From the NCBI RefSeq assembly GCF_024746815.1, contig NZ_CP080525.1, forward strand, positions 4,334,501-4,398,500: 64,000 bases of DNA, written 5' to 3'. The notes beneath the pieces were generated by a model that did not search any database, was not told the DNA's origin, and saw only the letters and a list, made by a program, of their open reading frames with translations. This DNA comes from Mesorhizobium sp. AR07 (GTDB lineage Bacteria; Pseudomonadota; Alphaproteobacteria; Rhizobiales; Rhizobiaceae). Both the position numbers and the translations under genes were made by a program. Numbering within the stretch: the stretch's first letter is position 1; each line of letters begins with the position of its first letter. This document shows, piece by piece, positions 4,107 to 47,094 of the stretch.

Positions 4107-5372
<1,266 letters not shown>

Positions 5373-5546
5373 AGACGGACCTTGAACGGATGGAGTCTGG
5401 GTAAGCTTTGGGAAGATATCGGCGGGATGCGACAAATGCCGGGCGCGGCCGAAAGCAATGATGGGCGGCGCATGACGGGAAGGAAGACCCGTCTTTTATC
5501 GTCGGTTGGATGAAAGAGCAAGCTGCGTTTTAAGCGCCGGATAGGC

Positions 5547-6092
5547 TCAGAACGGCTTGACGACAACCAGGATCACGATTGCGATCATCAGCAATGTGGG
5601 GATCTCGTTGATCATCCGCCAGTGCCGCGCCGGTTTTTCATTGCGGTCCTCGGCGAATTTGCGCACCGCACCCGCCAGATAGCCATGAACGGCGGACAGC
5701 AAAAGCACTGCACCGATCTTGGCGTGCAGCCAGCCACCGTGGAAACCAAAGCCTTTCCAGGCGAGCCACAGGCCGAACACCCAGGTGACGATCATCGCCG
5801 GATTGATGATGCCGCGCAGCAGGCGGCGCTCCATCACCTTGAAGGTCTCCGACTGCACCGAGCCCTTCTCGGCATCGGCGTGGTAGACCAGCAGCCGCGG
5901 CAGATACAGCATGCCCGCCATCCACGAAATGACGGCAAGGATGTGGATCGCCTTCGCCCATGGATAAAAGCTGTCGGGCGCGACGAAATACAAAAGTGCG
6001 GTGAGAACAACCAGCACGGCAATGCCTGATATCATGCGCATCATCGCCTGGCCGGTGCTGTTCGTGTTGCCAGCGTTGTTCGACTGAACCAT
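5547..6092 (-). CDS. hemJ: protoporphyrinogen IX oxidase HemJ
   Basis: A 181-residue membrane protein of the UPF0093/HemJ family, which oxidises protoporphyrinogen IX to protoporphyrin IX. About four to five membrane segments are visible. The conserved His is at residue 50 (WAKAIHIL), and there is a basic segment KVMERRLLRG. The gene overlaps the hemE stop codon (TGATG), so translation is probably coupled to hemE. Pairing of hemE with hemJ supports the assignment. Confidence 0.93.
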   Translation of the reverse strand: MVQSNNAGNTNSTGQAMMRMISGIAVLVVLTALLYFVAPDSFYPWAKAIHILAVISWMAGMLYLPRLLVYHADAEKGSVQSETFKVMERRLLRGIINPAMIVTWVFGLWLAWKGFGFHGGWLHAKIGAVLLLSAVHGYLAGAVRKFAEDRNEKPARHWRMINEIPTLLMIAIVILVVVKPF

Positions 6093-7123
6093 CAGCGTGT
6101 CGCGCTCCGCACAAGTTTCACCATCGCCTCGACATGGGCGATCGGCGTCTCCGGCGTGATGCCGTGACCGAGATTGAAAATCAGCGGCCCGTCTCCCAGC
6201 GCTTTCAGGACGGCCTCGACACCATCGGATAGCGCTTTGCCGCCAGCCACGAGCCGTAAAGGATCGAGGTTGCCTTGAACCGCACCCGAGCGCTGCAAAT
6301 CCTTCGCTGCCCCCAGGGGCACCGTCCAGTCGATCCCCAGGGCCGTCACACCGGTCTTCTGGCGATAGGTCTGGTAGCGCGCGCCGGCGCCCTTGGGAAA
6401 ACCGATGATCGGCACATCGGGATGAACCGCCCGCACTTGTCTGACGATCTCGGCCACCGGCTGAACGCAGAACAGGTCGAAGGACGCATCGTCGAGCACC
6501 CCGGACCAGGAATCGAAAATCTGCACCACGTCAGCACCCGCCTCGATCTGGCGGATGAGATAGGCGGCCGAATGATCGACAAGCACTTTCAGCAAGTACT
6601 GAAATGCCGCCGGCTCGCGATAGGCGAACAGCCGCGCCGGCGCTTGGTCGGGTGTGCCATGACCGGCAATCATGTAGGTCGCCACCGTCCACGGCGCGCC
6701 GCAAAAGCCGATCAGCGTTGTCTCGTCGGGTAGTCTTGCCCGTAATCGGCGAACCGTCTCGTAGACCGGTTCGAGATTCACGTGAAACGTTTTGCTTTCC
6801 AGAGCCTCTATCTCGGCTGCCGTGATCGGCGTCAGCAGGGGACCGCGTCCCTCTTCAAAGCGCACGTCGCGGCCAAGCGCATGCGGAACGACAAGAATGT
6901 CCGAGAACAGGATCGATGCATCGAAGCCGAAGCGCTCGATCGGCTGCAGCGTCACTTCGACCGCAAGGTCGGGATCGTAGCAGAGGTCGAGGAATGATCC
7001 GGCGCGCCTGCGTGTTTCCCGATATTCCGGCAGATAGCGCCCGGCTTGACGCATCATCCAGAGCGGAGGCGGGAACACCGCCTTGCCCTTCAGCACGTCC
7101 AGCATGATCCGGTTCTGGGGCAT
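6092..7123 (-). CDS. hemE: uroporphyrinogen decarboxylase
   Basis: A 343-residue enzyme that converts uroporphyrinogen III to coproporphyrinogen III in haem synthesis. Signature 1 is [11 protein letters not shown] at residues 25-35 and signature 2 is [16 protein letters not shown]. Length is normal. It is first in a hemE-hemJ unit and its start faces the candidate origin. hemE next to oriC is a well-known arrangement in Caulobacter and Rhizobiales. Confidence 0.97.
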
Positions 7124-7150
7124 CGAGCGCTCGCTTCTCCAAGCCTTCCT

Positions 7151-7193
7151 ATAATCTAAGATTCTTATATCTAAGATTCTTCTGATTCTAAGA
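7151..7193. repeat. AT-rich tandem palindromic repeats in oriC
   Basis: The 13-mer ATCTAAGATTCTT occurs at 7154-7166 and again at 7169-7181, a 15-base period, followed by a degenerate third copy around 7184-7193. Each copy contains the odd palindrome AATCT-A-AGATT or a close variant. In a GC-rich genome this AT-rich tract next to DnaA boxes looks like a duplex-unwinding element. A regulator site for hemE is the alternative. Confidence 0.6.
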
Positions 7194-7492
7194 GTCTGTT
7201 GGTTGTGGTGGTTGTCACCTGTCCCGCTTTGCCCCGAAAAATACCAGCCAGCATATTGTCGCGCGCTTGCTCAGCCAAAACTGTAGGGTTCTGGGGAAGA
7301 TCAGGAATCCATTACTGGAGTCAACGCGTTACAAGGTGCCGGCAAAAACCCGCCCTGTGGACAGACGATGGCCAAAAAAAGCCGTCCCCGGACTTGTCCC
7401 CAGCCGCCCGACGAAGCTGACAGCACAACGAATTGTGGACAAACCGCCATCTGATACAGTCGCCCCTGACCGGCCCGCTTTTCCATCCCGCC

Positions 7493-7501
7493 TTATCCAC
7501 A
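7493..7501 (+). promoter_or_regulatory. perfect DnaA box
   Basis: TTATCCACA matches the bacterial DnaA consensus at all nine positions and lies 28 bases before the ppsR start codon, among several weaker matches. Confidence 0.7.
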
Positions 7502-7528
7502 GCCGCCCACAGCCCCAGGTGACCCCCT

Positions 7529-8350
7529 GTGAACAAACCCCAGAGCTTCTTCCACCTGCACCTGATTTCCGACGCGACCGGCGAAACGCTGCTCGCCGCC
7601 GGCCGGGCGGCTTCGGCGCAATACAAGGATGCGCGCGCCATCGAGCACATCTACCCGCTCATTCGCACGGAAAAGCAGGTGGCCAAAGTGTTCGAGGACA
7701 TCGAGGAGGAGCCGGGCATCATCCTCTACACGGTCGTCGACCAGAAGCTCGCGCGCGGCATCGACGAACGCTGTGCCACCATGGGCCTGCCCTGCGTGTC
7801 GGTGCTGGAGCCGGTGCTCACCGTGTTCCAGTCCTATCTCGGCACGCCGGCCGGCCGCCGCGTCGGCGCCCAGCATGTCCTCGACGCCGAATATTTCCGC
7901 CGCATCGATGCGCTCAACTTCACCATGGACCATGATGACGGCCAGCTGCCGACCAACATGGACGATGCCGATGTGGTGCTGATCGGCATCTCGCGGACCT
8001 CGAAGACGCCGACCAGCATCTATCTCGCCAATCGCGGCATCAAGACCGCCAACATCCCGATCGTGCTCGGCGTGCCGGTGCCGGAAAGCCTGGTCAACGC
8101 CACCACGCCGCTGATCGTCGGGCTGATCGCCACCGCCGAGCGCATCTCGCATGTCCGGCAGAACCGCATTCTCGGCAACAGCAGTTCTTATGAGGCGAGC
8201 GACTATGTCGACCGCGCGGCGATCAGCGAGGAGCTCGCTTACGCCCGCAAGATCTGCACGCGCCATGGCTGGCCGATGATCGATGTCAGCCGCCGCTCGA
8301 TCGAGGAAACGGCGGCGGCGATCGTTGCCCTGCGCGGCAAGTCGAGATAA
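7529..8350 (+). CDS. ppsR: pyruvate, phosphate dikinase regulatory protein (kinase/pyrophosphorylase)
   Basis: A 273-residue DUF299-family bifunctional ADP-dependent kinase / Pi-dependent pyrophosphorylase, which regulates PPDK or PEP synthase by phosphorylating its active-site region. The P-loop is GISRTSKT at residues 153-160, and the N-terminus [11 protein letters not shown] is typical. The start is GTG 7529, which overlaps a DnaA-box-like 9-mer. Next to hemE across the origin, this is the gene called RP001-like in older origin literature. Which dikinase it targets cannot be told here. Confidence 0.93.
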
Positions 8351-36885: not shown

Positions 36886-37209
36886 TTGAGATCTCCTCCA
36901 AGCCGAGGAGAGGATACGCCAAGGCGGGGCGTTCTCAAAGAGTGGTCCGTTGTCCAGAGGGCAGCGCGTTGGGCGGCGCGATGCGGATGGGGTCGGGCGG
37001 TGCTCGGTCAGCTCAAGATTGATCAGCCGAGGCAGCCGACCGCAAACAGGATGAGCAGGAACACCGGCCCGCGCGCGGTATCAGAAGAATGCGCCACGAA
37101 CGTCAGCACGCCGACGACGGCCGCGCGACAAACGGCGCGATCGCCTTGAAGGTGGCTCCTAAAAGGCATTCCGGTGGAAGCCGAGGACGCACCGAGGAAA
37201 GCCAATACT
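36886..37209. other. gap at the left edge of the accessory island
   Basis: 324 bases with no convincing gene. A 60-codon minus-strand frame at 37023-37205 ends in the hydrophobic AAVVGVLTFVAHSSDTARG and LILFAVGCLG; it may be the tail of a lost membrane-protein gene. No tRNA or attachment-site repeat was seen. Confidence 0.3.
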
Positions 37210-37623
37210 TCAACCCAAGAATTCTTCCAGCCGTCCCCTCAATTCAGGTATATCTTTGATCTCGCAGGCCCAGACGACAAGCACTTCCCATCCCGACTCC
37301 CGCAATGCTGATTCCACGCGCAAATCTCGCGCTATGTTGTCTTGGAACTTGGCCTGCCAGAAATCCACACGGGTCTTAGGGGTGGTGGTGTGCCGGCAAC
37401 CTGGATGTCGATGCCAAAAGCAACCATGGACAAACAGAACCCGCTTGCGCCTAGGGAAAACCAAATCTGGTGATCCGGGTAATGAATGACGGTGCAAGCG
37501 AAACCTGTAGCCCATAGAATTCACGAGCCGTCTGATTATCATCTCCGGCTGTGTGTTGCGCGACTTGACGCGGGACATCAAACGGCTTCGATCGGGTGGC
37601 ACGGGTTCCAGTGGTGATGGCAT
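37210..37623 (-). CDS. vsr: very short patch repair endonuclease
   Basis: A 137-residue Vsr endonuclease, which nicks next to T:G mismatches produced by deamination of 5-methylcytosine. The family segments DRSRLMSRVKSRNTQPE, catalytic D53 in GSPDLVF, and HGCFWHRHPGCR (zinc and active-site residues) are present. Vsr genes are normally linked to a C5 cytosine methyltransferase, and one lies 2.9 kb away at 40567-41733. Here it is separated from that gene by the DUF262 and HEPN genes. Confidence 0.95.
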   Translation of the reverse strand: MPSPLEPVPPDRSRLMSRVKSRNTQPEMIIRRLVNSMGYRFRLHRHSLPGSPDLVFPRRKRVLFVHGCFWHRHPGCRHTTTPKTRVDFWQAKFQDNIARDLRVESALRESGWEVLVVWACEIKDIPELRGRLEEFLG

Positions 37624-37699
37624 CTTTTCGTAAGACTCTCTTCGTGCAATCGGTATCTTATATGTGCAGCCAGCGATCGAGACTCAAATAGTGGCAAAA

Positions 37700-38761
37700 A
37701 TGGCAAATCAAGAACTAAGCGAATCAGCAATTCAGGATGCCGTCGAAACCGCTCGGAATGAGGTTCGCTACCTTGTAACCGACTTCCCAGTGGACACACT
37801 TATACGAAAATTTAAAGAAGAAGAAAACGTCGACGAGGGCGACATATATATTCCCAACTACCAGAGGACCCTACAGTGGAGTGTTGATCAAAAATCTTAT
37901 TTCATCGAAAGCCTCCTTCTCAGAATACCTATTCCACCAATCTTTTTCTACGAAGTGGGCGGGCGACTGGAGGTCGTGGACGGATCTCAGAGAATTCGCA
38001 CTTTAGTCGAGTTTCGAAATGATAAGTTTAAACTGAATAATCTTGAAAAACTCGACTCGCTAAATGGTTTAAAGTTCAGCAAAATCCCAATTGTTAGCAA
38101 AAAAAGATTCTTGAACAGCCCGATCCGCTCGTTTGTCCTAGAAGAAGGTACGGATGAAAGCTCTCGAGTTGAACTTTTTCGCAGAATAAACACGTCTTCA
38201 AAGCAGTTAACCGAAGCAGAAATTAGAAATGGAGCTTATCAAGGCCCTTTTCTCGATCTAGTGGTAGATTGTGCCAACAGAAATGTTTTCAAGCACCTCG
38301 CGCCGGGTACAGGTTCGCGCGGCAATAGAAATCCTGAAAGTGAGCGGCAAGAGCTGGTAGCTAGGTTCTTTGTCTATTCACGATCTTACAAGGATTTCGT
38401 CCACGATGTTCAGCGTTTCATCGATAATCATTTCAAAAAACTCAATAAGGAATTGCTTCCAGCGGAGCTGGGAGCGATGTCGGAGGAGTTCGACAGGGTT
38501 ATGAATTTTATCGCACACAATGCGGCGAATGCCTTCTTTAGAACGGATAAGACAAAGCAGGTACCAAGGGTTCGATTCGAAGCTATCGCAGTTGGCGTTT
38601 GCTTAGCTCTTCGAGAGGCTCCGCAGTTGCAAATTGCGAATTTTGATTGGCTTGATGAGGCCGACTTCTACCAATTGATTCGAACTGATGCGAGTAACAG
38701 TGGGCCTCGCCTCAGGTCGAGAATCGAATACGTCCGGGACAAGATTCTTGAACAACAATGA
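37700..38761 (+). CDS. DUF262 domain protein
   Basis: About 353 residues. DUF262 is the ParB/Srx-like domain of GmrS-type nucleases, which bind or hydrolyse nucleotides. PNYQRTLQWS and the hallmark DGSQR (in VVDGSQRIRTLVEF) are visible, followed by FRRINTSSKQLTEAEIRNGA. No HNH/DUF1524 domain is attached, unlike full-length GmrSD. The start is uncertain: ATG 37700 is used, GTG 37664 and GTG 37691 are in frame. It is clearly AT-richer than flanking core genes, pointing to transfer. The stop overlaps the HEPN start (ATGA), so the two proteins are probably partners. Confidence 0.85.
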   Translation: MANQELSESAIQDAVETARNEVRYLVTDFPVDTLIRKFKEEENVDEGDIYIPNYQRTLQWSVDQKSYFIESLLLRIPIPPIFFYEVGGRLEVVDGSQRIRTLVEFRNDKFKLNNLEKLDSLNGLKFSKIPIVSKKRFLNSPIRSFVLEEGTDESSRVELFRRINTSSKQLTEAEIRNGAYQGPFLDLVVDCANRNVFKHLAPGTGSRGNRNPESERQELVARFFVYSRSYKDFVHDVQRFIDNHFKKLNKELLPAELGAMSEEFDRVMNFIAHNAANAFFRTDKTKQVPRVRFEAIAVGVCLALREAPQLQIANFDWLDEADFYQLIRTDASNSGPRLRSRIEYVRDKILEQQ

Positions 38762-39234
38762 GTGAAATCGACGCCCTGGAGACCAAATTTGATGAGCTTG
38801 AAACGGTCCTTAAGCTAACGAGGGAGCTTGAGAAGAGGCAGCGGTCCAACGTTAGAAATTACTACCAGAAGCAGCAGCTCATAGCCTCAGTACGAGCGAC
38901 TACGTATGTAATGCTTTACAATGCTCTGGAAAGCGCGATGCGCGCCGTTATGAAGTCTATACGAGAACGAATTGAAGCAGACGGAATATTGTTTGGCGAT
39001 GCGGCGGAGTACTGGCGGCTTGACGTTGTACAGGCCATTTTCTTAGATCGTATGCAAAACGGAACGAGTCATGGAAATGTACTGACAGATTTTATCCCAC
39101 TAACAAGCTTGCCCTTGGCTTGGGACGAACAAAAGAAAGATCGACTTCCATTTAGTGGAAATTTCGGCCAAGCTTCCGCCCTTAAATTGAAGGATGGTTT
39201 AGCGATCGCTTGGGCCGCGCCGCCACATACCCTA
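38758..39234 (+). pseudogene. HEPN-domain protein, 5' part, split by IS630-family element
   Basis: The first 159 codons of a HEPN-like protein, apparently of the MAE_28990/MAE_18760 type. It begins inside the DUF262 stop (ATGA). The frame is interrupted at a CTAG target after ...PPHTL; read-through into the IS adds only VDGI before a stop. The rest lies at 40383-40613. Base composition is AT-rich like the DUF262 gene. Confidence 0.8.
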
Positions 39235-40311
39235 GTGGATGGAATCTAACACTTGGTGCCCACGTTTGACGGCAGCAATGATTTTGTCGGGATCGGCGGT
39301 CCAAGTGAAGGGTTTGGGTTGCTGGTTGTGCTCTGCCACGAAGCGGTTGATTGCCGCCTGGAGGTCGACGACGGAGTGGAAGACGCCTCGCTTGAGACGA
39401 CGCGTGGAGAGTTTGGCGAAGAAGCCCTCGACGGCATTGAGCCACGAGCATGAGGTCGGCGTGAAGTGGAAGGTGAAGCGCTGATGGCGGTCGAGCCAGG
39501 CACGCACCTTGGGGTGCTTGTGAGCGGCGTAGTTGTCGAGGATGACATGGACCGCCTTGCCGGCCGGCGCCTCGGTGTCGATGGCGTTGAGGAAGCGGAT
39601 GAACTCCTGGTGGCGGTGACGCTGCATGTTGCGGCCGATGACGGCGCCGTCGAGCACGTTGAGAGCGGCAAACAGCGTGGTGGTGCCGTGCCGCTTATAA
39701 TCGTGCGTCATGGTGCCGAGCCTTCCCTTCTTCATGGGCAGGCCGGGCTGGGTGCGGTCCAGTGCCTGGATCTGGCTCTTCTCGTCGACCGACAGCACGA
39801 TGGCGTGGGCCGGCGGATCGACATAGAGGCCGACGACGTCGCGCAACTTGTCGATGAATTTCGGATCGTTGGAGAGCTTGAACTGCCGCCAGCGGTTTGG
39901 CTGCAGCCCGTGCGCCTTCCAGATGCGGCGCACCGCGCTGGCGCTGATGCCGGCGGCCCTGGCCATCATGTCGGCGGTCCAGTGCGTCGTTTCCCCTGGC
40001 GGGTCGTCGAGCGCCAGCGCCACGACGCGCTCAGCGATCTCAGGCCCGAGCGGCGCAATGCGCGAGGGACGCGTCTTGTCGCGCAGCAGCCCCTCGAAGC
40101 CTTCCGTGGCGAAGCGCTCCTGCCAGCGCCACACGCAGGTCTTGGATTTGCCGGTCCGCCCCATGATTTCGATCGTGCCGGCGCCGGTGGCGCTCAACAG
40201 CACGATCTCGGCGCGCCACACATGCTTCTGCGGGCTGTTACGATCTTTGACCAGGGCAACCAAACGCCGATGGTCAGAAGGCGAGACGGTGAGAGATATT
40301 CCTGTGCGCAT
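39232..40311 (-). CDS. IS630-family transposase
   Basis: A 359-residue DDE transposase. The N-terminal part has Tc1-like helix-turn-helix segments (LSATGAGTIEIMGRTGKSKT and ISASAVRRIWKAHGLQPNRW). The catalytic residues are D in LSVDEKSQIQ, D in HVILDNYAAHK and E in NAVEGFFAKL. The frame is intact. ATG 40311 is chosen; a GTG/other start 27 bases upstream is possible. Its stop codon TAG is completed by the duplicated TA and one flanking base. Confidence 0.93.
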   Translation of the reverse strand: MRTGISLTVSPSDHRRLVALVKDRNSPQKHVWRAEIVLLSATGAGTIEIMGRTGKSKTCVWRWQERFATEGFEGLLRDKTRPSRIAPLGPEIAERVVALALDDPPGETTHWTADMMARAAGISASAVRRIWKAHGLQPNRWRQFKLSNDPKFIDKLRDVVGLYVDPPAHAIVLSVDEKSQIQALDRTQPGLPMKKGRLGTMTHDYKRHGTTTLFAALNVLDGAVIGRNMQRHRHQEFIRFLNAIDTEAPAGKAVHVILDNYAAHKHPKVRAWLDRHQRFTFHFTPTSCSWLNAVEGFFAKLSTRRLKRGVFHSVVDLQAAINRFVAEHNQQPKPFTWTADPDKIIAAVKRGHQVLDSIH

Positions 40312-40382
40312 ACCGCAGACTCGCACGCGCTCAGCCAAAAGGGAATCCCGATCCGGACTCTTATGTCAGGCGGAAACCACTA
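39233..40382 (-). mobile_element. IS630-family insertion sequence
   Basis: An element of about 1148 bases including the flanking TA pair at 39233-39234 and 40381-40382, the usual IS630/Tc1 target duplication. The ends share TAGTGG, seven variable bases, then CTNACA as imperfect inverted repeats. It carries one transposase gene. It sits inside the HEPN gene; removing it with one TA restores that frame exactly, so the insertion is probably recent. Confidence 0.88.
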
Positions 40383-40613
40383 GGTGGTAGCGACCTCGAT
40401 AATGTGCGTGAACGTCGCAACGCCCTGGCCCACGGTCTTGAATCCTTTTCAGAAGCAGGAGGCGAGGTGCTGGCGAAGGACCTTTTGGATATGTTAGATC
40501 GCGTTCGGAAATTTATGGTGTCTTACATTTCAGCGCTTGAAGCCTATCGTGACTCTCAGGGCTATCTTAAGCAGCTTCCGCAAGGGCCAAATAACAACGC
40601 AGGTCCTCCATAA
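40383..40613 (+). pseudogene. HEPN-domain protein, 3' part
   Basis: 76 codons plus stop that continue the frame broken at 39234. They read GGSDLDNVRERRNALAHG, with the R-x4-6-H HEPN motif, then a helical C-terminus ending NNNAGPP. Joined to the 5' part the protein would be 235 residues. The last 47 bases overlap, on the other strand, the 3' end of the methyltransferase gene. Confidence 0.8.
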
Positions 40614-41733
40614 ACTCCTGGTTCTTTCTAAGCGGAGCTACTTCAAAGCGACGAGTGAACCCTGCAATCGCTCGCTTCGATACGGGTTTTGGCGCGTGCA
40701 ATCCAAAGTCGCTTAATAGAATTATTGTTGAGGAGGCGGGTCCTTCACCAGTTACGGCGAGACCTGTCATTTTTCTTTCGGGGCCGCCATAGGCGGCTCG
40801 AGGCAATCGCTCTCCTGGAACTATAGTCGTCCAGCCATCGTTAGCGACAGGGTCTGAGGCAACGATTTTGCTGCCAATCCACTCGGCGACTGGAACACTC
40901 ACCGCATTGCCTGTCAACAGCCATCGTTGCCGAACGCCCTTTGGAAAAGGATCTGCGGCTTCCGTCCAATCGACAGGAAACCCCTGCAATCTTTCGGCAT
41001 CTTCGATTCCTGGTGAGATGAAATTTGAGGTTTCACGATTCCAGATAGCGGGCGGCGACGGGATGCTAAGACCTGAACCGCCCTTCAGTGGTGGTATTGC
41101 TTCGGGCGACCATCCGAGGCCGCGATTTCCTTCAGTCCAATAAAATCCAACCATCTTCGGTTCTTCTAAAACCGGAGGCCGTTGCTCCTCAATCCCATCA
41201 AATAGAATGGTCTCGGGACTGTGATTCAACGAAGCCAAAACGAACAAACGGCGGCGGCGCTGTGGAAGCCCGAAGGACCTCGTATCAAGTATCCGATAGG
41301 CCCATCGGTAGCCCAATTGTTCAAGTTGCGCCGTCACATATCTGACCGACTCCCCCTTATGCAAATCGAGGGCGAATGCGACGTTTTCCAAAAGGACGTA
41401 TTCTGGTTTTTGATCGCTTGCTGCAATTAGGCGAAATACTTCGCTGATGAGGCCCGAGCGATCCCCCCCTAGTCCCCTCATGCCTCCCGCCAGGCTAATG
41501 TCTTGACAGGGCCAACCAGCAGTTACGATATCGCAATCCGGGAGTGAGCCGAGAGTGGTTATGTCTGGCGCTAGTTCGATATCAGGAAATCGATGGGCGA
41601 GGACCGCCCTGGCGACAGGGTCCGACTCGCACATTAACACCGTACTAAAGCCTGCCTTCTCGAGGCCTTTTTCGAAACCGCCAATCCCGCTGAATAAGCT
41701 CACGACGCGGAGGGAATCGGTTTCACGAATCAT
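40567..41733 (-). CDS. DNA (cytosine-5) methyltransferase
   Basis: A 388-residue C5 methyltransferase. Motif I is VVSLFSGIGGFEKGL; motif IV is GWPCQDIS with catalytic C76, and the ENV motif is in YVLLENVAFAL. Motif VIII is PQRRRRLFVLAS and motif X is RWLLTGNAVSVPVAEWIG. It lacks a long target-recognition insert but has an extra C-terminal extension of about 90 residues. The target sequence cannot be read. It pairs functionally with vsr. It is convergent with the HEPN gene and ends the island 47 bases from lepA. Confidence 0.93.
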   Translation of the reverse strand: MIRETDSLRVVSLFSGIGGFEKGLEKAGFSTVLMCESDPVARAVLAHRFPDIELAPDITTLGSLPDCDIVTAGWPCQDISLAGGMRGLGGDRSGLISEVFRLIAASDQKPEYVLLENVAFALDLHKGESVRYVTAQLEQLGYRWAYRILDTRSFGLPQRRRRLFVLASLNHSPETILFDGIEEQRPPVLEEPKMVGFYWTEGNRGLGWSPEAIPPLKGGSGLSIPSPPAIWNRETSNFISPGIEDAERLQGFPVDWTEAADPFPKGVRQRWLLTGNAVSVPVAEWIGSKIVASDPVANDGWTTIVPGERLPRAAYGGPERKMTGLAVTGEGPASSTIILLSDFGLHAPKPVSKRAIAGFTRRFEVAPLRKNQEFMEDLRCYLALAEAA

Positions 41734-41780
41734 GTTTGCATCTTAGTCGGGTCGGGAAAGAAACTCGAGCAAAAATTTTC

Positions 41781-43586
41781 TCAATCCCCCATCTTCAGCG
41801 CCTGAATGAACGCCTCCTGCGGAATATCCACTTTCCCGAACTGCCGCATCCGCTTCTTGCCTTCTTTCTGCTTGTCCAGCAGCTTGCGCTTGCGCGAGAC
41901 GTCGCCGCCGTAGCACTTGGCGGTCACGTCCTTGCGCAGCGCCGAGATGGTTTCGCGGGCAATGACCTTGCCGCCGATCGCGGCCTGGATCGGGATCTTG
42001 AACAGATGGTTCGGGATCAGCTCCTTCAGCTTCTCGCACATCTGCCGGCCGCGCCTTTCCGCCGCCGTGCGGTGCACCAGCATCGACAGCGCGTCGACCG
42101 GCTCCTCATTGACCAGGATCGACATCTTCACCAGGTCGCCTTCCTTGTAGTCGGTCAGGTGGTAGTCGAACGAGGCATAGCCCTTGGAGATCGACTTCAG
42201 CCGGTCATAGAAATCGAAGACCACTTCGTTGAGCGGCAGATCGTAGATCAGCATGGCGCGCTTGCCGACATAGGAGAGGTCGGCCTGGATGCCGCGCCGG
42301 TCCTGGCAGAGTTTTAGAATGCCGCCGAGATAGTCGTCGGGCGTCAAAATGGTGGCGCGGATCCATGGCTCCTCGATCGCCGCGATCTTCACCACGTCGG
42401 GCATGTCGGCCGGGTTGTGCAGTTCCTTCATCGAACCGTCGGTGAGCAGCAGCCGGTAGACGACGCTCGGCGCCGTGGCGATCAGGTCGAGGTTGAACTC
42501 GCGCTCCAGCCGCTCCTGGATGATTTCCAGATGTAAGAGGCCAAGGAAGCCGCAGCGATAGCCGAAGCCGAGCGCGGCACTGGTTTCCATTTCATAAGAG
42601 AAGGAAGCGTCGTTGAGGCGCAGTTTGCCGACCGCGGCGCGCAGATCCTCGAAATCGGCGGCGTCGACCGGGAACAGGCCGCAGAACACCACCGGCTGCG
42701 CCGGCTTGAAGCCGGGCAGCGCCTTGGCCGTCTGGCGCTTGTCCTCGGTGATGGTGTCGCCGACGCGGGTGTCGGCCACTTCCTTGATCGAGCCGGTGAA
42801 GAAGCCGAACTCGCCGGGGCCGAGTTCGTCGACATTGATGCGGGCCGGCGTGAACACGCCGGTGCGCTCGACCAGGTGTTTTGCGCCGGTGCCCATCATG
42901 CGGATGGTCTGGCCCTTCTTCAAAACGCCGTCGATGATGCGCACCAGCACGATGACGCCGAGATAGGCGTCGTACCAGCTGTCGACCAGCATGGCCTTGA
43001 GCGGTGCTGACGCATCGCCCTCGCGCGGCGGCGGCAAGTGGTGGACGATCGCTTCCAGCACATCGGGAATGCCCAAGCCGGTCTTGGCCGAGATCAGCAC
43101 GGCGTTGGACGCGTCGATGCCGATCACCTCCTCGACCTGCTCGCGGATGCGCTCGGGCTCGGCGGCCGGCAGGTCGACCTTGTTCAGCACCACGACGATC
43201 TCGTGGTTGTTGTCGATCGCCTGGTAGACATTGGCCAGCGTCTGCGCCTCGACGCCCTGCGAGGCGTCGACGACCAGCAGCGAGCCCTCGCAGGCGGCGA
43301 GCGAGCGCGATACTTCATAGGCGAAGTCGACATGGCCGGGCGTGTCGATCAGGTTGAGGATATAGTCCTCGCCATTGTTGGCGTGGTATTTCAGCCGCAC
43401 CGTCTGCGCCTTGATGGTGATGCCGCGCTCGCGCTCGATGTCCATCGAGTCCAGCACCTGTTCCTTCATGTCGCGCAGCTCCAGCCCGCCGGTCAGCTGG
43501 ATCAGCCGGTCGGCAAGCGTGGATTTGCCATGGTCGATATGGGCGACGATGGAGAAATTGCGGATATGGTCGAGGGGCGTGCTCAT
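41781..43586 (-). CDS. lepA: elongation factor 4 (back-translocating GTPase)
   Basis: A 601-residue LepA/EF4 GTPase. G1 is [10 protein letters not shown]3 is DTPGH and G4 is NKVD, and the C-terminal LepA-specific domain has [20 protein letters not shown]. Length is normal. It is a core gene that marks the right border of the accessory island. Confidence 0.97.
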
Positions 43587-46776: not shown

Positions 46777-47094
46777 ATGACCACTTTTTCTCGGCTGACA
46801 TCGTCGGCCCGCCTGACGCTGCCGGCGCTCGCTCTCGCTCTGTGCTCGACGGCGCTGCTGGCCGGCGGCATTGCCCGCGCCGACGACGCGACCAACGCCA
46901 TGAAGCCCGCCGCCAACGCGATGAAACCCGCGGCCGATGCGATGGCACCCGACGCGACGAGCACGAGCGCTATGAAACCCGCAGCGAATGCCATGAAACC
47001 GGCAGCGGATGCCATGAAGCCGGCGGCTAATGCCATGAAACCCGCCGCCGACGCGATGAAGCCCGCGGCGGACGCCATGGCTCCGGCCAATTGA
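46777..47094 (+). CDS. secreted heptapeptide-repeat protein (AMKPAAD/N)
   Basis: A 105-residue protein with a signal peptide (LTLPALALALCSTALLAGG, cleavage near ARA-DD). After it, from about residue 41 to the end, come tandem heptads AMKPAAN or AMKPAAD with two diverged copies AMAPDAT and AMAPAN. AAGGAG lies 8 bases before ATG 46777. It resembles pentapeptide MxKDx-type repeat proteins. Repetition at DNA level suggests copy-number change. No function known. Confidence 0.7.
   Translation: MTTFSRLTSSARLTLPALALALCSTALLAGGIARADDATNAMKPAANAMKPAADAMAPDATSTSAMKPAANAMKPAADAMKPAANAMKPAADAMKPAADAMAPAN

Follow-up and report, generated by a model that had tools for sequence, protein, structure and literature searches.

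The stretch of DNA analysed here (the window, 64 kb, C1:4334501–4398500) lies on the main chromosome, C1 (6,659,189 bp, 6.66 Mb), of an 8.73-Mb genome in five contigs. The closest named relatives are Mesorhizobium species, with a best ppsR protein match of 98%. Positions are those of the window unless preceded by C1. Near its left end, hemE on the minus strand starts at 7123 and ppsR on the plus strand starts at 7529, leaving between them the gap 7124–7528, at C1 4.342 Mb, that a first-pass annotation had put forward as a candidate chromosomal origin. Its limits proved exact, and the flanking genes point outward from it as claimed, according to the ORF calls and the NCBIfam identities. The features are as follows; fractions are of 81 aligned sequences (see below).

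4107–5435, minus strand: rho, transcription termination factor, in the hemE-side flank (NCBIfam TIGR00767, over cut-off)
5547–6092, minus strand: hemJ, protoporphyrinogen oxidase (TIGR00701, over cut-off)
6092–7123, minus strand: hemE, uroporphyrinogen decarboxylase, an ORF reading away from the gap (TIGR01464, over cut-off)
7124–7528, no strand: candidate oriC, the entire hemE-ppsR intergenic gap (ORFs, box scan, alignments, neighborhood)
7145–7204, no strand: probable DNA unwinding element, the 60-mer with the lowest stability in the window (nearest-neighbor stability; GC in 27-base steps)
7155–7164, plus strand: AT repeat 1, TCTAAGATTC, with GANTC at 7160 kept in 21/81 (stability and motif scan, alignment, as for repeats 2 and 3)
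7170–7179, plus strand: AT repeat 2, TCTAAGATTC, with GANTC at 7175 kept in 78/81
7187–7196, plus strand: AT repeat 3, TCTAAGAGTC, with GANTC at 7192 kept in 81/81
7184–7204, plus strand: near-invariant 21-bp core, GATTCTAAGAGTCTGTTGGTT, with GANTC at 7184 (79/81) and 7192 (81/81) (alignments)
7251–7263, no strand: near-invariant conserved block, GCATATTGTCGCG (conservation lines of the alignments)
7305–7309, no strand: GANTC site (GAATC), kept in 66/81 (alignment)
7318–7322, no strand: GANTC site (GAGTC), kept in 73/81 (alignment)
7319–7331, plus strand: possible, weak IHF site, one mismatch to the IHF consensus WATCAANNNNTTR (motif scan)
7356–7364, minus strand: DnaA box, CTGTCCACA, two changes (box scan, alignment)
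7394–7402, plus strand: weak DnaA-box-like site, TTGTCCCCA, identical in 79/81 (box scan, alignment)
7434–7442, minus strand: DnaA box, TTGTCCACA, one change, identical in 80/81 (box scan, alignment)
7449–7463, no strand: near-invariant conserved block, ATCTGATACAGTCGC (conservation lines of the alignments)
7493–7501, plus strand: perfect DnaA box, TTATCCACA (box scan, alignment)
7528–7536, minus strand: weak DnaA-box-like site, TTGTTCACA, two changes, extending over the ppsR start codon (seen in the sequence itself; conserved in the alignments)
7529–8350, plus strand: ppsR, PPDK/PEP-synthase regulator (COG1806/DUF299), reading away from the gap (NF003742, over cut-off; the equivalog model NF049928, PpsR, scores below its cut-off)

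The perfect DnaA box and the two minus-strand boxes were found where the first-pass annotation had placed them, and two weaker ones are present as well. The genome as a whole has 15 perfect boxes (nine on C1, just one of them inside the gap), against 31 for a backwards control, and by single-box count the window is ordinary, with six sites of at most one mismatch vs. 3.7 expected. Boxes were also scored jointly, zero, one and two mismatches counting three, two and one points, summed over 405-bp intervals. The exact gap scores 7, and intervals shifted to include the box at 7528 reach 8, which is the highest value among 31,848 intervals scanned and again among 79,376 of a larger sample (the window and 98 sampled 20-kb stretches, ~30% of the chromosome), where the next two places score 6. 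No clear run of DnaA-trio motifs was seen by eye in the gap.

Beside hemE, the AT-rich repeat tract of the first-pass annotation consists of TCTAAGANTC repeated three times, at 7155, 7170, and 7187. It is a degenerate repeat, since Tandem Repeats Finder at score 30 gave no entry for it. Instability like that of 7145–7204 was found in about 2 in 100,000 of 1.56 million sampled 60-mers. The first 19 bp of the core at 7184–7204 are unique in the genome, even at a tolerance of three mismatches. Allowing up to two mismatches, the same 19 bp adjoin ppsR in all 11 relatives with assemblies of 1–3 contigs (exactly in 10), one of which has an additional, weaker match elsewhere.

The gap is also rich in GANTC, the CcrM site, with six copies in 405 bp compared to a density of 1.37 per kb over 1.62 Mb of C1. 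Four of the six (7160, 7175, 7184, and 7192) are within the AT tract, and each of the three AT repeats includes one. In the C1 sample, one other place equals the gap in GANTC clustering over 200 bp and surpasses it over 50 bp. The genome encodes a CcrM orthologue at C1:6417713, whose best solved relative is CcrM 6pbd (E 3e-165).

Conservation was followed in an alignment of the window with the 80 best loci out of 264 from a public set of genomes; of these 80, 77 are titled Mesorhizobium. Across these 81 sequences the gap is 400–500 bp long and carries 4–7 GANTC sites in every case, and the sequence drifts between conserved islands. Three boxes (7434, 7394, and 7493) are kept in 79–80 of the 81; the position 7493–7501 reads TTATCCACA in 58 and TTGTCCACA in 21, and at 7356–7364 a TCCACA core is found in every listed variant, these variants covering 78 sequences. 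The nearly invariant islands outside the boxes are 7184–7204, 7251–7263, and 7449–7463. One truncated locus (G004), on a contig starting at the first base of ppsR, was excluded from a smaller alignment.

The arrangement extends well beyond the genus. Among 24 genomes from other families of the order, 21 have a ppsR match and three have none, and 20 of the matching loci were retrieved (G047 was omitted). Divergent hemE and ppsR genes with a gap of 363–571 bp were found in 17 of the 18 testable families. The three retrieved loci lacking hemE comprise two at contig ends, which are untestable, and one (G054) with no hemE within 3.9 kb. All three named Rhizobiaceae records, Sinorhizobium sp. K101, Rhizobium sp. 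NLR16a, and Shinella sp. PSBB067, have the same gene order, with gaps of 403–408 bp and GANTC beside hemE as in Mesorhizobium, but they have diverged in detail: GATTCTAAGAGTC and CATATTGTCGCG are absent and TTAGAGTCGGT is found instead. Over these 20 gaps (17 families and three Rhizobiaceae), the 110 bp adjoining hemE are AT-richer than the remainder in 18. The same 110 bp hold 31 GANTC sites in total, vs. 12.7 expected from 300 dinucleotide shuffles (sd 3.2, highest 23), with at least one site in 18 of the 20 loci. Three records labeled as plasmids carry the hemE-ppsR gap: NZ_CP104131.1 (3.5 Mb), NZ_CP069303.1 (4.6 Mb), and NZ_CP072868.1 (489 kb), the last with ParA and ParB genes annotated next to it. 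These may be mislabeled chromosomes or chromosome-derived replicons.

Conservation of this kind might in principle reflect something other than replication. The conserved elements could serve the divergent transcription of hemE and ppsR as promoters and leaders, perhaps under the control of DnaA, CcrM, or GcrA, with no origin present. The near-invariant blocks at 7251–7263 and 7449–7463 and the GANTC core are indeed not DnaA boxes; motif scans of the two blocks found no DnaA, CtrA, or IHF site, and 7449–7463 is perhaps part of the ppsR promoter. GANTC methylation is also able to affect promoters, according to excerpts of PMC11514494. However, promoters alone would not call for the box cluster, the unstable tract, or the parS neighborhood described below, and a scan of 6900–7700 for sigma-70-type promoters, the only type within its reach, returned none. 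The annotated oriC intergenic region of S. meliloti is moreover described, in the excerpted part of PMC2245857, as giving no transcription signal in the assays of that study. Taken together, these points make a purely promoter-based explanation very improbable. A structured or small RNA encoded in the gap would likewise account for strong non-coding conservation, but no Rfam family matches the gap at gathering level (the single match with E ≤ 1 in 6900–7700 is inside ppsR, at 18.6 bits vs. a cut-off of 41.2), and the same excerpt has the S. meliloti oriC region serving as a transcription-negative control. An RNA gene here has next to no probability.

Four parS-like sites (TGTTTCACGTGAAACA, at most two mismatches, two of them with one) were found in the genome, all within C1:4331730–4334109, a 2.4-kb span that is 7.5–9.9 kb from hemE and 0.6–3 kb from parA. 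Homologues of parA, parB, rsmG, mnmG, and mnmE surround them. The backwards control gave two sites to the real four; lone weak parS-like sites can arise by chance, but four in 2.4 kb not easily. In all 11 relatives with 1–3 contigs, every parS-like site (at most one mismatch) is on the hemE side of ppsR, ~7–10 kb from it, with the distance in G004 counted across a contig end, and the control count in these genomes is zero.

Strand composition gives a less tidy picture. The first-pass annotation had named a cumulative GC-skew minimum at the gap as a check on its proposal, and agreement here is only rough: k-mer composition shifts at 4.21–4.39 Mb, around the candidate, but the skew minimum is not at 4.342 Mb. 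In 56 coarsely spaced stretches it falls at ~5.29 Mb, towards dnaA, and the best two-segment break in GC skew is at 4.94–5.02 Mb, so that minimum and break are 0.6–0.95 Mb off the candidate. With the arms split at the candidate, GC skew still differs between them (p 3e-5). Raw GC skew was rejected as an origin locator, its signal being too weak (arm means of −0.12% vs. −1.75%) and almost without polarity over ~4.0–5.9 Mb.

The polarity of GGGNAGGG gives a best origin at 4.10–4.14 Mb (score 146), with 136 at 4.30, 140 at 4.40, 134 at 5.0, and 126 at 5.4 Mb, and a clear terminus-side switch at 0.74–0.78 Mb, roughly opposite the candidate. A 5-mer strand classifier, trained on the terminus-side parts of both arms and correct for 35 of 40 stretches when these were left out, scores negative in 19 of 24 stretches at 2.7–4.34 Mb. 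Beyond 4.34 Mb the score is near zero, 13 of 22 stretches up to 5.17 Mb being slightly negative. Mean shifts of 3-, 4-, and 5-mers, using all stretches and two ranges, are best placed at 4.21/4.23 Mb, 0.12 Mb off the candidate; without one outlier stretch at 4.28–4.30 Mb the best position is 4.37/4.39 Mb, with 4.33/4.35 among the next three. A rank test of k-mer scores with the outlier included separates 18 from 22 stretches with p 0.004. Cumulative k-mer minima fall at 5.31 Mb for k 3 and k 4 and at 4.59 Mb for k 5, 0.25–0.97 Mb off the candidate. The left-arm signature thus ends near the candidate, and the first ~Mb of the right arm bears little signature. In one relative (G021), sampled in 20 stretches, too sparsely for a GC-skew minimum and so used for the polarity switch only, the switch is at ~1.9–2.2 Mb, roughly opposite its hemE locus (4.99 Mb).

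Two peculiarities of the chromosome can be noted here. The outlier stretch, C1:4280001–4300000 in the left arm, runs against its arm with a GC skew of +6.6% and a 5-mer score of +2.98; a search of it for 16S motifs found none, and it is not explained in that way. Right of the origin, from ~4.35 to 5.7 Mb, C1 has almost no strand-composition signature compared with the left arm, perhaps through rearrangement or the presence of islands.

An alternative is that the main origin is beside dnaA (C1:5.394 Mb) or elsewhere within 4.9–5.4 Mb, the hemE gap then being a DnaA-regulated promoter region. The GC-skew minimum and break and the 3- and 4-mer minima all point that way, and a separate box cluster upstream of dnaA scores 6. 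Boxes upstream of dnaA are usual, however, for dnaA autoregulation, which counts against reading this cluster as an origin. No parS-like site is found there, all being beside hemE, as in 11 of 11 relatives. An origin in that region would also give very unequal arms, ~4.6 vs. 2.0 Mb measured from the switch at 0.74–0.78 Mb, the GGGNAGGG fit is poorer there (126–130) than at 4.3–4.4 Mb (136–140) or 4.1 Mb (146), and the k-mer mean shifts at 4.2–4.4 Mb rather than 5 Mb. An origin on the dnaA side is accordingly considered improbable. Apart from dnaA itself, 17 weaker matches to the Bac_DnaA family were found on C1, C2, C4, and C5, in open frames of 263–334 aa; these are presumably IstB-type transposon ATPases.

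The box cluster, the unstable tract, the gene context, the conservation, and the nearness of parS and parAB agree in supporting the origin proposed in the first-pass annotation, and the gap 7124–7528 is very likely the oriC of the 6.66-Mb main chromosome. Such a location is to be expected, because related bacteria have their origin at hemE too. The S. meliloti oriC (SMc04880) reportedly adjoins hemE and replicates autonomously, a result attributed to Sibley and colleagues in 2006. For Caulobacter crescentus the precedent is stronger than the first-pass annotation had claimed, hemE and a COG1806 gene flanking the experimentally defined origin, Cori, according to excerpts of PMC1914354. These also give Cori a gap of more than 400 bp, an AT-rich region, and several DnaA boxes, as here, and GANTC sites are present in it as well (excerpts of PMC3973325). 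The two differ in that five CtrA sites are described for Cori (PMC1914354, in part) and none is found in the Mesorhizobium gap, which has only the one-mismatch IHF-like site. Caulobacter-type control by CtrA is not supported, because there is no TTAA-N7-TTAA site in the gap on either strand, nor any TTAA whatever. The hemE-type alphaproteobacterial oriC is thus already known, and the Mesorhizobium gap very probably belongs to that type. Among the open-access literature matches listed, no report on a Mesorhizobium oriC stood out.

What is observed here is the anatomy of the gap, its rarity, its conservation, its nearness to parS and parAB, and the presence of dnaA and ccrM in the genome. From the anatomy, a course of events at the gap can be proposed that includes DnaA binding, unwinding, firing, and a changing methylation state. 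DnaA would bind the ppsR-side boxes (7493, 7434, 7394, 7356, and 7528) and then oligomerize; it would melt the GC-poor repeat tract beside hemE (~7145–7204), where the helicase would be loaded, and forks would depart both ways from the gap. ParAB would segregate the new origins via the parS cluster, which is 7.5–9.9 kb away in the direction of hemE. Copying of the origin would leave the GANTC sites of the tract and those next to it hemimethylated until CcrM acted late in the cycle, with a possible effect on initiation or on hemE expression, or with none. An origin at this position fixes the chromosome arms and the gene-dosage gradient where raw GC skew would mislead, and the alignments provide a map of the origin bases held fixed across the genus.

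The GANTC placement in the unwinding repeats and its fixation across the genus are new here. A parallel can be drawn with E. coli oriC, where, in the excerpted text of PMC4285127, three AT-rich repeats (13-mers) likewise form the unwinding element and a methylation motif is over-represented in the origin. There the motif is GATC (Dam) rather than GANTC (CcrM), and the gene context is unrelated. A Dam-like role of CcrM at the Mesorhizobium origin is nevertheless unlikely, given results from two relatives. Caulobacter lacking CcrM has a normal DNA-content profile, and the authors concluded, in the excerpts of PMC3973325, that CcrM is not required for the control of initiation. In Agrobacterium, depletion or over-expression of CcrM affected the repABC-type ori2; at ori1, which depends on DnaA, any change was neither obvious nor significant (excerpts of PMC11514494).

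A more specific version is that unwinding is gated by CcrM, hemimethylation of the repeats altering melting or DnaA loading, with a second element (described below) then acting as a remote control on DnaA comparable to datA or DARS. This is rated as quite unlikely, because the published Caulobacter and Agrobacterium ori1 results oppose its first half. If true, it would make this origin a counterpart of the E. coli Dam/SeqA origin built of unrelated parts. The conserved GANTC repeats in any case offer a concrete handle on CcrM action at a chromosomal origin, and a positive effect would be a surprise, since effects are known at Agrobacterium ori2 but not ori1, and CcrM is not required in Caulobacter.

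The second element, C1:3842950–3843330, is a conserved non-coding region 0.5 Mb from the gap, with the joint second-best box score (6). It is also the other GANTC cluster of the sample mentioned above, with 10 sites and a twice-repeated CTGATTCGTCGCCGATTCGTTCC. Three DnaA-box-like sites are spaced in 11-bp steps (starts 2956, 2967, and 2978 of locus L063, with two, one, and two mismatches), and the flanking ORFs, named by eye, are a phaB-like reductase and a helicase. Matches were found in all 23 Mesorhizobium genomes searched and, weakly, in one of 14 others. Twelve aligned copies have 7–12 GANTC sites each, and the box-trio pattern fits six of them. Rfam gave no match in it. In the nine genomes with both loci on one contig it is on the hemE side, 43–830 kb from ppsR, a range that shows the distance not to be fixed. 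It could be a remote control site linked to DnaA or CcrM.

Two further features of the window are some distance from the gap. The region 37001–42000 has a GC content of 0.49–0.59 compared to ~0.64 around it, and is possibly an acquired segment. At 46892–47079 there are 21-bp tandem repeats, in about two and five copies.
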